Origin: a virus
Length of the DNA stretch: 64,000 bases
Strand: one strand, 5' to 3'
Virus record (IMG/VR): IMGVR_UViG_3300046809_000224
Coordinates: 1 to 64,000 of that record
In this document: positions 19,143 through 27,764 of the stretch, piece after piece
How positions within the stretch are numbered: position 1 is the stretch's first letter
Layout: every line of letters starts with the position of its first letter
Notes under the pieces: model-generated
Seen by the model: the letters and a program-made list of their open reading frames with translations, nothing else
Databases searched by the model: none
Told to the model about the DNA's origin: nothing
Program-made: the position numbers and the translations under genes

Positions 19143-19377
19143 TATTTGTCTCCTTGGCGAGGGCGCGGATAAAATCAACGCAATCGAGCACCGTCACTGG
19201 CGATAGAAACTGCGGACTCTTGTAATCGTCCGCAAGCGCCTTAGCACATCCCTCAAGCGCCGCGCGGTGGGATGCTTGCTCGATGGCGCGGGCGAAGTCG
19301 ATTAACGCCGACTCACTAGCATCCAGATCGAAGCCTGTCGTTTCCAGATGCATGCGCTTGATGTCGTCGTCAGTCAT
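19135..19377 (-). CDS. Small acidic early protein
   Basis: 80 residues: DIKRMHLETTGFDLDASESALIDFARAIEQA and a C-terminal helical segment with two Cys. It overlaps both neighbours. The N-terminal motif is seen in small phage early proteins, but function is unknown. Confidence 0.6.
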   Translation of the reverse strand: MTDDDIKRMHLETTGFDLDASESALIDFARAIEQASHRAALEGCAKALADDYKSPQFLSPVTVLDCVDFIRALAKETNNG

Positions 19378-20245
19378 GGCCGGCTCCGCTTGCAGGTTGC
19401 GCAGCGGTCAGATGGTTGCCAATCGCGTCAATAAGCTCCGTCTGCGCCGGGTGACCGTATTCGCTCGCATGCTGCTCAAGGTGATACTTGGCTTGACGCA
19501 AAAGTGTCAGCGCTACCTGTGTCTGTGCTGGTTGCGGGGCGGCGTAGACGATGCGCGTTGCGAAGCATGCCGGGTATTTCGCCATGTGGTCGTGCGCGTC
19601 TTTGCTGCAATCCGCCCACACGTCCTTATTCGCATGGATATTTTCTCGACACTGATAGATCGGCTCCGCTGCCACCTTTTCGGCGGTGAGAGCGGCGCGC
19701 ATTTCGTCCATGCTTGCCATGTCGAACATGCCCGGAAATGCTACTGCTGCATCGTCTTCATCTACCTGCGGTGGAATCCACTTGATGCCAGCGGCGTTGC
19801 ATTTGGCGATGATCTGTGCATCCGTCAACGATTCATGCGGTGCTGTCGTGCTGGCTATGAAGTCATAAGCCTCGATTGCCCATGCGTTCAGCCGGTCAAC
19901 ATCATCCGGGCCGTAATTGCTCATGTTCAATTCGATGTAATCGGCCAGCAGCGCTTCCCGCTCCCCAATCGCCCCATTTGCGGCGTCCTCACCGATATGC
20001 TGAGCGCGGCGGTTCCACCCGGCAATTGCCGATTGCTTGTGAAGACCATTCACCGCGTCAAAGCAACCCATCCGGTTGTTTGCGTAGCCGCGCTTTCCGT
20101 CAACGCCGCACACGGTGCACCGGACTAATGCAGCCCAGCGCGTAGCGTCCACTTCCTCGTATTCCTGCAACTCTGCTGCCCCGCCACAGAACGGGCACGG
20201 CTTCAGTTCCTCACCGCTCGGCTGAGTGTGATTTGTCGTGGTCAT
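19370..20245 (-). CDS. Lar-like restriction-alleviation/zinc-ribbon fusion protein
   Basis: 291 residues from the ATG at 20245. The N-terminal 70 residues have ELKPCPFCGGAAEL and VRCTVCGVDG, the paired zinc knuckles of the Lar restriction-alleviation family, ending in AIAGWNRRA, the family's C-terminal signature. The remaining 220 residues are a mosaic of helical segments with HANKDVWADCSKDAHD. If Lar-like, it would modulate host type I restriction; only the zinc domain supports this. Confidence 0.65.
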   Translation of the reverse strand: MTTTNHTQPSGEELKPCPFCGGAAELQEYEEVDATRWAALVRCTVCGVDGKRGYANNRMGCFDAVNGLHKQSAIAGWNRRAQHIGEDAANGAIGEREALLADYIELNMSNYGPDDVDRLNAWAIEAYDFIASTTAPHESLTDAQIIAKCNAAGIKWIPPQVDEDDAAVAFPGMFDMASMDEMRAALTAEKVAAEPIYQCRENIHANKDVWADCSKDAHDHMAKYPACFATRIVYAAPQPAQTQVALTLLRQAKYHLEQHASEYGHPAQTELIDAIGNHLTAAQPASGAGHD

Positions 20246-20955
20246 TTGCTGTCCTTTGCGCGAGCGAGTGTGTGGCGTGCGCGGCTCTGAACCCAATCTG
20301 CGAACTCCGTGTCATCTGCAAATGTCTCGTGGTCGAACCGCTTGGCATTGACGATGTTTTGCAGTTCCTTCACCGCCTCGTCTGCTTGCTCGGCGTCACC
20401 GCACGATTGCGCGGGAGCGGCGTATCCAATCTGCTCATACGCCTTGGCAATGACCTCGTGTGCCTTACCGCGGGCCTTGGAATCAGCCAGGGTCGAAGGC
20501 GTTTTTGTGAAGTGCTGCACCATCATTTGCAGCGTGTCGAGCAATTCACGTGTCAAGGCGTCCGCCGATTGCGCGGGAGCGGTGGGAAGGGGGCCAGTAA
20601 CGCCAGCCAGCTCCCACGTCTCAGTCCTCAGACGGTGCTCGATTTCCTCGCAGGCAAGATCAAAGACTGACTCGGCTTGCGTTGGGATTGCCGTACCTGA
20701 TTTCGAGAACCCTTGCTGCCGAACGGCGGCCACGATATGCAAGGCGCGCCGCTGCTCAAGCGCCACCGCGAGGTCAATCACGTCATCGGCCGTCACGGCA
20801 GGCTTGCTTGCAAGCAGGGCGCGTTGAGCCCACTTGACGGCCTTGGTGAAGCTCTTCAGGTTGCACGGGCAATATGGGTTGTCGGTGCTGAACGTGTCGC
20901 GCCAGCCTTTCTCGATCTGCTCATTGGTAAGCACTGCGTCTGTATCGGTATTCAT
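20242..20955 (-). CDS. Early protein of unknown function
   Basis: 237 residues. LTNEQIEKGWRDTFSTDNPYCPCNLKSFTKAVKWAQRALLA is a motif found in several phage early proteins of mosaic type. The rest is helical with a Gly/Pro-containing linker. It overlaps both neighbours by ATGA. No enzymatic motif seen. Confidence 0.55.
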   Translation of the reverse strand: MNTDTDAVLTNEQIEKGWRDTFSTDNPYCPCNLKSFTKAVKWAQRALLASKPAVTADDVIDLAVALEQRRALHIVAAVRQQGFSKSGTAIPTQAESVFDLACEEIEHRLRTETWELAGVTGPLPTAPAQSADALTRELLDTLQMMVQHFTKTPSTLADSKARGKAHEVIAKAYEQIGYAAPAQSCGDAEQADEAVKELQNIVNAKRFDHETFADDTEFADWVQSRARHTLARAKDSK

Positions 20956-25758: not shown

Positions 25759-25947
25759 TCAGCTCGTGAGTGTGTGGACAGCCAGCAGCACCACTGCAAC
25801 GACGATCGCGCCGCAGGAGACGCCGGCAATGAGTTCGTGTGTCTTGGCGGTCGCTCGCAAAAGATCGTTGTCGTTCGCGAGTCGGCGAAGTCCCTCGTCA
25901 GAAATGCAGACGGTGTAATCCTCGGTTTGCTCGTAGGTGGCGCTCAT
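25759..25947 (-). CDS. Single-pass membrane microprotein
   Basis: 62 residues from the ATG at 25947. A polar N-terminal half (EDYTVCISDEGLRRLANDNDLLRATAKTHE) is followed by a hydrophobic helix (LIAGVSCGAIVVAVVLLAV). The start overlaps the previous stop. Orientation and role are unknown. Confidence 0.65.
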   Translation of the reverse strand: MSATYEQTEDYTVCISDEGLRRLANDNDLLRATAKTHELIAGVSCGAIVVAVVLLAVHTLTS

Positions 25948-26213
25948 GATTCCTCCTCTTCTTCTTCCGGCTGCTCGTCCAGAACCTCGGCCTCGCACTG
26001 CGGGCAGACTTCGCGCACGTCTTTGTGCACTTCCTTGCTGCCCCAGTACTCGTATGCGCCTATGCCAAAGTCGACTTTCACCGTCTGGACATTGCATTGG
26101 CACTCAGGGCAATAGCCGTACTTCGTGTCCGGCTCATAGTCCGGCTCGTATGTGTCGTAGTCGCGCAGCGGCGCGATTTGCCTGTAGACCTCGGCATTGA
26201 AATGTTTGCCCAC
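25944..26213 (-). CDS. Zinc-ribbon early protein
   Basis: About 89 residues from the GTG at 26213, selected because GAGGAG lies 8 bases upstream. YGYCPECQCNV and VCPQCEAEV are two CxxC knuckles typical of a zinc ribbon; the C-terminus is poly-Glu. It is the first gene after the structured element at 26245-26316. Confidence 0.65.
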   Translation of the reverse strand: MGKHFNAEVYRQIAPLRDYDTYEPDYEPDTKYGYCPECQCNVQTVKVDFGIGAYEYWGSKEVHKDVREVCPQCEAEVLDEQPEEEEEES

Positions 26214-26244
26214 GGTAGGACTCCTCAATTCTGTTGAAGGTTAA

Positions 26245-26316
26245 GCCCTGGCGAGTAGCGTGCCGGTCCCCGGTTATCCGGCGTTCTTGCAGTGGGAATG
26301 CGCTACTCGTCAGGGC
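26245..26316. ncRNA. Long-stem structured element, possible small RNA or leader
   Basis: 16-base arms (GCCCTGGCGAGTAGCG and CGCTACTCGTCAGGGC) pair with a single mismatch around a 40-base interior that holds a second stem (GCCGG / CCGGC). The 72-base length and two-level fold are not explained by coding. On the leftward transcript it lies about 30 bases before the ribosome site of the zinc-ribbon gene, so it may protect the mRNA, cause attenuation, or be processed. Confidence 0.5.
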
Positions 26317-26551
26317 GCCGGTCTTTCCCGGCTGTCAGCGTGTTAAGAGGCTCGCAACTCTCGGTCTTTCCCGGCTGGCAGAGGCTTCGGGCCGCTCAGA
26401 TGAGCCACGATACTTCGCCTCGGTTGCCGTCTCTCCGGCTGTCGCACCACTCCTTGTGCCCACTACAGGCCCGGCAGGTGTCGCGTTGAGTTCGTTGCGG
26501 CGTCTCACCGCTGCGGCTTATAGCTGCTAAGAGCGGCCGTCGCTTCGATAT
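26317..26551. repeat. Intergenic region with repeated CGGTCTTTCCCGGCTG
   Basis: The 16-base unit occurs at 26319-26334 and 26362-26377 (43-base spacing); a degenerate third copy is near 26428. No frame in the region has a credible start and protein character. It interrupts an otherwise tightly packed leftward operon, so it is probably regulatory or a remnant of an inserted element. Confidence 0.5.
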
Positions 26552-26683
26552 TCAGTCAAGCGGCCCAAACACCGCCTCACGAAAGCGCAACCACGCTTCC
26601 TCATCCCTTTCCCGCTGCGCCGCCATCTGCTCGTCAAGCCATGCGCGGGTGATCTCTACCCATGCGTCAAGTTCCGTTTTCAT
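26552..26683 (-). CDS. Small helical early protein
   Basis: A 43-residue frame (ELDAWVEITRAWLDEQMAAQ; EEAWLRFREAVFGPLD), Trp- and acid-rich. GAGGGTG precedes the ATG, which overlaps the stop of the acyl-carrier-like gene. Coupling supports a real gene; function unknown. Confidence 0.6.
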   Translation of the reverse strand: MKTELDAWVEITRAWLDEQMAAQRERDEEAWLRFREAVFGPLD

Positions 26684-26928
26684 TTCACCCTCGCCGTCAC
26701 GCAGTCAACAATGTCTCGCGCCGTCCTGAGCGCGTTCATTGCGTCGTCATCGATCTCAAACCCGAACTCGTCTTCGACAGTCATCGTGATTTCGAGCAGA
26801 TCAAGATCGTCCATGCCGTACTCGACGGCCATCTGAGCGTCGAGATTCAAGCTGGCCGGCGTCGTGGCGAACTGCTCGGCGACGATGTGCCGCACCCGCT
26901 CCTCAACATTCCTCACTGCGGTTTCCAT
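26680..26928 (-). CDS. Acyl-carrier-protein-like protein lacking the phosphopantetheine serine
   Basis: 82 residues from the ATG with GGAGGGAAG upstream. Length, helix pattern and motifs follow bacterial ACP: VEERVRHIVAEQF (helix I), LNLDAQMAVEYGMDDLDLLEITMTVEDEFGFEI (DSL region, helix II), then ARDIVDCVTARV (helix IV). In ACP the helix II start is DSL with the modified Ser; here it is Asp41 (DDL), so no 4'-phosphopantetheine can be attached. It might be an acidic decoy or adaptor for an ACP partner. Confidence 0.75.
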   Translation of the reverse strand: METAVRNVEERVRHIVAEQFATTPASLNLDAQMAVEYGMDDLDLLEITMTVEDEFGFEIDDDAMNALRTARDIVDCVTARVK

Positions 26929-27038
26929 GCTTCCCTCCGCTTGGGTTCGCGGTTGCGGCGCTCGTCGGCACCGCGCACAAATAAAATGAGCACGATGTTC
27001 GCGATCAGGATGATGGTTATCCAGTGGTAGGTGTTCAT
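26913..27038 (-). CDS. Single-pass membrane microprotein
   Basis: 41 residues: MNTYHWITIILIANIVLILFV is a membrane helix, followed by a strongly basic tail (RGADERRNREPKRREAW). Its end overlaps the start of the ACP-like gene and its start overlaps the upstream gene stop. The tight packing argues for expression; role unknown. Confidence 0.6.
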   Translation of the reverse strand: MNTYHWITIILIANIVLILFVRGADERRNREPKRREAWKPQ

Positions 27039-27289
27039 TTGGCCTCCAGAAGGGCGCGACCTTCATCCATAAACTTGAGAATGTCAGCGGCGTTGTTCAT
27101 CGCGGTCCAATACAGCTTTTCTAGCATCGTGTCCGTCAGCGCTTTCGGCTGGCTGGCGGGCTTGGTGTCGACTTGCGTGAACATCGCGTCATGCCATGCG
27201 ATCTGCCAGGTGAACCAATCGACGTTTATTCCGGCTTCGCGCTGCTGCTCGAAGCCTTCACGGCATGCATGCGGGTTAATGGTTTCCAT
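27035..27289 (-). CDS. Small early protein
   Basis: 84 residues from the ATG at 27289 (a GTG 9 bases upstream is possible). It has INPHACREGFEQQ, DWFTWQIAWHDAMF and a C-terminal helix DTMLEKLYWTAMNNAADIL. The type appears in several Burkholderia-like phages. Function unknown. Confidence 0.6.
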   Translation of the reverse strand: METINPHACREGFEQQREAGINVDWFTWQIAWHDAMFTQVDTKPASQPKALTDTMLEKLYWTAMNNAADILKFMDEGRALLEAK

Positions 27290-27291
27290 GG

Positions 27292-27444
27292 TCAGCACCA
27301 GGCAATCAGATCAAGTTGGACATACTCCGAATCCAGCACCCTGCCCGTCCGCGTTACCCGGTCGATCCGGTAGAGGAAACCAAGGTGCGGGATCGCCTGC
27401 GTCGCTATCTCCATGATGCGGTGGACTGCTCTTTGAGGGGTCAT
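27292..27444 (-). CDS. Small early protein
   Basis: A 50-residue frame (MTPQRAVHRIMEIATQAI; FLYRIDRVTRTGRVLD; VQLDLIAWC). It begins inside the stop of the 107-residue gene and ends two bases before the next ATG. It is short but well framed by its neighbours. Function unknown. Confidence 0.6.
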   Translation of the reverse strand: MTPQRAVHRIMEIATQAIPHLGFLYRIDRVTRTGRVLDSEYVQLDLIAWC

Positions 27445-27764
27445 GGTTGGGTCCCGGTGGCTTTGGCGAGTGCTTCACGCGCAACCTCGCATGCCATGCC
27501 AATCAGGGCCATTAGCTCAACCGGGCTTCCGTGATCACATGCCTCAACTAATTCCCGGCATGCGTCAAAAAGATCCGGGGCGGCTTGAAACAAGCGAGCC
27601 ACCGCCTCAGCCTCGCCTTGTGAGCAATCAGGTCCGCGCTGCACGCTGGCATAGATGCGGTTGCAAAATTGCTCCTCGCCCTTGCTCCAGCCTGCGTGCT
27701 GAAGCGCATAAATCGTCGAGCCGGTTCGCAGATATGGCCCCGGCGTATGCTTGATCTCGCTCAT
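27441..27764 (-). CDS. Conserved small phage protein, first gene of leftward operon
   Basis: 107 residues starting MSEIKHTPGPYLRTGSTIYAL and continuing with NRIYASVQRG, AEAVARLFQAAPDLFDACRELVEACD. The N-terminal HTPGPW/Y motif with a C-terminal helix is a well-known small phage family of unknown function. It is the promoter-proximal gene of the leftward early operon. Confidence 0.75.
   Translation of the reverse strand: MSEIKHTPGPYLRTGSTIYALQHAGWSKGEEQFCNRIYASVQRGPDCSQGEAEAVARLFQAAPDLFDACRELVEACDHGSPVELMALIGMACEVAREALAKATGTQP

Follow-up and report, generated by a model that had tools for sequence, protein, structure and literature searches.

What use could a phage have for an acyl carrier protein (ACP) that lacks the serine to which phosphopantetheine is attached? 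The question is raised by a minus-strand gene of a soil phage at positions 26680..26928 of the window, that is, the whole 64,000-nucleotide stretch analysed here (positions 1 to 64,000 of the 67.4-kb IMG/VR virus record IMGVR_UViG_3300046809_000224). Its 82-residue product, METAVRNVEERVRHIVAEQFATTPASLNLDAQMAVEYGMDDLDLLEITMTVEDEFGFEIDDDAMNALRTARDIVDCVTARVK, is ACP-like and carries DDLD at the phosphopantetheine site. The reading that we prefer, with a probability of about 0.42, is that the protein stays apo for good and works by binding other proteins; most likely it would be a decoy that attracts those host enzymes for which apo-ACP is a partner (PlsB, AcpS).

The gene encodes a true ACP homologue. 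The product matches Pfam PF00550 (PP-binding) with 45.5 bits, against a cut-off of 20.8, and its best PHROG is 5934 (57.4 bits, profile positions 13-88 of 93). An AlphaFold2 model (pLDDT 91.4) superposes on chain 4etw_B of Escherichia coli AcpP with an rmsd of 0.9 Å and a TM-score of 0.92 by target in Foldseek, and with a Z of 14.8 in VIA-align. A sequence-only reading of this DNA had proposed the ACP fold, to be abandoned if the structure was not ACP-like; the predicted structure bears the proposal out. The same reading had noted that the DSL motif has become DDL, and alignments agree, placing Asp41 (GAT codon, 26808-26806 on the minus strand) at the position of E. coli Ser36, so that DSLD is replaced by DDLD. 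The protein has a single serine, S26, located in loop 1, and the N-terminus of helix II contains neither Ser nor Thr. Because the usual site is lost, the product would never be phosphopantetheinylated there and is predicted to be permanently apo. The equivalents of the helix II recognition residues D35, L37, D38, E41, M44, E47 and D56 are all present. The protein fails the NCBIfam equivalog test for ACP (TIGR00517, 52.2 vs 70.45 bits) and scores under the cut-off of every other ACP model listed; a Ser-bearing sister, from phage record L027, is likewise under the cut-off, and this criterion alone does not separate carriers from non-carriers.

The closest database copy of the locus (L002) matches the window at 99.99% identity across 13.4 kb and was rejected as independent support. 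A second phage of 68.5 kb (L026) has a terminase 97% identical to that of the window and an ACP only about 62% identical, also with Asp in place of the attachment Ser of the D-S-L motif. Between these two genes, dN/dS is 0.32 (NG86) or 0.13 (YN00), and the site codon is GAT in the window and GAC in L026, compared with TCG or TCT in the Ser sisters; from every Ser codon, Asp or Glu is at least two base changes away. Since L026 keeps Asp, dN/dS is low and no Ser codon lies within one change, the aspartate is no stray mutation, and both a sequencing error and a single mutation were rejected as explanations. The sequence-only reading had argued against decay, and no sign of decay was found; it had also asked whether homologues keep Ser and the window holds a single mutation, and here the answer is divided, with Asp shared by two phages and Ser retained in the nearest sisters.

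The window and L026 proteins form one supported clade (SH-aLRT 97), nested within the Ser-bearing proteins of L027-L032 and of a Paraburkholderia record (L151). The L027 phage has a terminase 91% identical to that of the window, yet a Ser-type ACP. Because these nearest sisters keep Ser, the change from Ser to Asp is recent in the window's family, though it recurs elsewhere. The L026 gene (4001-4243) is a mosaic: its start region resembles that of the Ser-type L031 gene (4001-4246), with 93-97% DNA identity, while the rest, from helix II to the C-terminus, is mostly window-like (80-87% DNA identity) although the flanks have been replaced. As this gene joins a Ser-type start to an Asp-type core, Ser and Asp alleles appear to have been exchanged at a single locus. 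Across L026-L032 and L151, the ACP gene has been retained despite the turnover of many neighbouring accessory genes.

Recurrence of an acidic site in other phages was assessed with two surveys blind to the site residue, a search of phage records with the window protein (20 non-redundant groups) and a metagenome scan with a pattern avoiding the site (54 groups). Ser was present in 15 of the 20 groups of the first survey (the others being E3 N1 D1) and in 48 of the 54 groups of the second (E3 D2 Y1 in the remainder). Combined, the surveys show no Ser in 11 out of 74 groups of phage ACPs, and nine of those 11 are acidic. Overall, Asp or Glu occupies the site in 20 of 24 non-redundant non-Ser groups, and totals that include the two scans aimed at acidic sites (A3 and A8) are biased; another alignment, A2, was too diverse to use for scanning. 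As a cellular control, the acidic profile was run against 299 genomes of one phylum; its top 30 matches there, together with 10 matches from genome contigs, have Ser in all 40 cases.

In Ackermannviridae, 269 records match the SKML-39 protein, under annotated names that, among those shown, were either 'acyl carrier protein' or hypothetical (e.g. L017, L169-L172). Glu is found in Agtrevirus, Limestonevirus, Taipeivirus, Miltonvirus and Nezavisimistyvirus, and Asp in Kuttervirus and CRW-SP2; Glu and Asp thus interchange, and Ser occurs in none of the proteins read, from at least five genera. The site residue is Asp in Pseudomonas phage Lu11 and Asn in phage NCTB, where it belongs to the first of two PP-binding matches that lie 1.4 kb apart in the NCTB record (L022, 118421-118564 and 119978-120124). 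In Aeromonas giant T4-like phages, the rIIB protein is composed of an ACP-like domain, a helix-turn-helix and RIIB, in that order. The N-terminal domain of phage ZPAH1 rIIB (L238, 25-1269; residues 3-66) exceeds the Pfam PP-binding cut-off and has Glu at the site, and that of phage 65 (L239) has Gly.

The recognition residues of helix II are conserved in the acidic-site phage proteins at levels close to those of the Ser group (n=16, E. coli numbering: D35 100%, L37 94%, D38 100%, E41 94%, M44 81%, E47 100%, D56 100%). A tree of 114 short proteins is poorly resolved; parsimony places 11 Ser/non-Ser changes on it, of which strong branches force only two, and the number of independent Ser losses is therefore uncertain. 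On this weak tree, eight changes are between Ser and an acidic residue and four between Ser and another residue. The excess of Ser/acidic changes, the lack of a one-step path from any Ser codon and the retained recognition residues are together better explained by selection of an acidic surface for binding than by plain loss. The recurrence of the swap in unrelated phages suggests that the ACP fold has been reused not for a metabolic carrier function but as a module for binding or as a decoy. A broader and more tentative proposal is that phages have repeatedly made acidic-site, permanently apo 'pseudo-ACPs' as a general host-takeover or scaffold module, with examples in Ackermannviridae, jumbo phages, T4-like rIIB and soil temperate phages; the charge would then be selected as such, perhaps as a mimic of the phosphopantetheine phosphate.

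How could such a protein act on the host? We infer the binding, its target and the timing of expression as follows. A folded ACP without the usual site would stay apo and would retain the acidic helix II surface recognised by ACP partners. If made at an early stage of infection, or during lysogeny, it could occupy host proteins that recognise apo-ACP, in competition with host AcpP, and host membrane synthesis or growth would be slowed. The best candidate targets would be glycerol-3-phosphate acyltransferase (PlsB) and holo-ACP synthase (AcpS), the latter having apo-ACP as its substrate. In E. coli, glycerol-3-phosphate acyltransferase is inhibited more by apo-ACP than by holo-ACP (PMC3896788), and MukB is stimulated equally by apo-AcpP and the holo form (PMC8602292), while S36T ACP, which remains unmodified, is non-functional as a carrier (PMC3340395). 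SpoT is unable to bind apo-ACP (PMC3896788) and IscS does not bind S36T ACP (PMC13343975); PlsB and AcpS stand first among the plausible host targets because these published data speak against the other two; for such apo-ACP binders, the idea from the sequence-only reading of a mimic that titrates host enzymes would still be plausible. A SpoT-type target had been put forward from the sequence alone, and binding of ACP to SpoT in E. coli does map partly to helix II (PMC3340395). Given that SpoT does not bind the apo form, we consider an action through SpoT or the stringent response very improbable.

A ribosome-binding site, GGAGGG (26933..26938, minus strand), ends 4 nt ahead of the ATG, in agreement with the strong site noted earlier. 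Starting from an alternative in-frame ATG upstream, at 27066, the product would be 128 aa long, but homology reaches no further upstream than about residue 7 of the 82-aa form. Judging from the record's genes for repressor, replication, terminase, portal, tail sheath and baseplate, the phage is contractile-tailed and of temperate type. The strand that encodes the ACP also encodes an Erf-like annealing protein, an exonuclease, a Lar-like restriction alleviation protein and a CI-like repressor. The early leftward operon proposed in the sequence-only reading fits this gene content, from which alone we infer it. The Lar domain protein lies at 19370-20296 (minus strand; Pfam PF14354, 40.6 bits). 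On the minus strand as well, a companion ORF of 43 aa (26552..26683) overlaps the ACP stop with its own start (ATGA), and a 41-aa ORF with one hydrophobic segment (26913..27038) shares 16 nt with the start of the ACP gene; Pfam and PHROG searches gave no family match for the former and no confident one for the latter. Directly after the ACP gene, counterparts of the 43-aa ORF occur in L026 (72% identity) and L031 (51% identity), and L032 has a divergent 47-aa ORF. Past these genes, the non-coding segment 26220-26550 contains two blocks, AGCGACGGCCGCT and TTCCCACTGnAAGAACGCyGGATAACCGGG, common to L031 and the Paraburkholderia record. An Rfam search of 25900-27500 and a PADLOC search of ten operon proteins gave no match, the window and L026 records each have a single PF00550 match and hence no second ACP detectable with that family, and a terminase comparison for host assignment returned distant phages only.

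Among the explanations other than a decoy, the one with the most in its favour, though we think it unlikely, is that the ACP fold serves as a structural adaptor to which another protein of the phage binds (such as the 43-aa protein here, or rIIB in the Aeromonas phages), for which only binding is needed and Ser is dispensable. The overlapping companion ORF that recurs in L026 and L031, and in divergent form in L032, is what such a partner would look like, but it is not present in several sisters (L027-L030, L151). Likewise, the fusion to RIIB in ZPAH1 (Glu) and phage 65 (Gly) and the N-terminal extension beyond the ACP domain in the Ackermannviridae proteins are in line with an adaptor, whereas no single partner is common to the Ser-less phages in the annotated neighbourhoods examined. 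Drift under relaxed selection after loss of a carrier role would agree with the Ser of the nearest sisters, and with the divergence of the window and L026 ACPs, which differ at 37% of positions next to terminases that are 97% identical. It is improbable, however, in view of the dN/dS values, the Asp common to both proteins, the preservation of helix II to the C-terminus in L026 while the flanks were replaced, and the acidic bias, including the Ackermannviridae, in which Glu and Asp are swapped and Ser is not seen. Least credible, together with the SpoT target, is a carrier that still works, with its cargo held non-covalently or at a different residue, and that feeds a phage or host pathway. 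The fold and partner surface are intact and phage acpP genes have been interpreted as auxiliary metabolic genes (PMC8224337), but the only Ser lies in loop 1, and a search of seven phages with a Ser-less ACP for the phosphopantetheinyl transferase family PF01648 was negative.

The decoy has to be weighed against several further considerations that count against it. Some ACP partners, SpoT and IscS among them, need the phosphopantetheine arm; D35, D38 and E41 could be conserved for folding; and the rIIB fusion suggests a binding role internal to the phage instead. Moreover, only two members of the exact Asp clade are known (the window and L026), and the close Ser sisters at the same locus leave room for a carrier role in the ancestor.

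A phage ACP without serine is a variant of a known fold. Its significance lies in the annotation of these genes as PP-binding proteins or metabolic helpers in fatty acid synthesis, which changes for a share of phage ACPs, including every Ackermannviridae protein sampled, because proteins without the serine are predicted to be unable to act as ordinary carriers. What we offer is the idea of an apo-locked ACP used by phages against host lipid synthesis, or as an adaptor; it is testable in cultured phages with a Ser-less ACP (Kuttervirus, Limestonevirus, Lu11 and Aeromonas phage 65).

Phage ACPs have been described as PP-binding or metabolic genes (PMC3220722, PMC8224337, PMC7760394), and one of them, Sajous1 gp186, was detected by mass spectrometry (PMC10892097); in the sources searched, which exclude most subscription journals, no mention of a missing serine was found. 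Compared with AcpP of type II fatty acid synthesis (PF00550, TIGR00517), the window protein has the same fold, size, acidity (pI 4.1) and helix II recognition residues, but is phage-borne, lacks the attachment serine and falls below the NCBIfam thresholds given above. It shares with the phage ACPs of PHROG 5934 the status of a phage accessory gene and differs in its Asp, as most phage ACPs found keep Ser. The Ackermannviridae 'acyl carrier proteins' (PHROG 4154, e.g. SKML-39 gp053) also lack Ser, with Glu or Asp instead, but are longer (about 88-108 aa), have another N-terminal region and fall outside the clade of the window protein. In the Aeromonas phages ZPAH1 and 65, rIIB begins with a domain that is Ser-less and ACP-like too (DELD or DGLD); this domain is fused to the RIIB lysis inhibitor, whereas the window protein is free-standing. 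A further parallel is the E. coli protein in its apo form or with Ser36 mutated; what is there a precursor, or a state made by engineering, is the form into which the window protein, a natural product predicted to be unmodifiable, would be locked.
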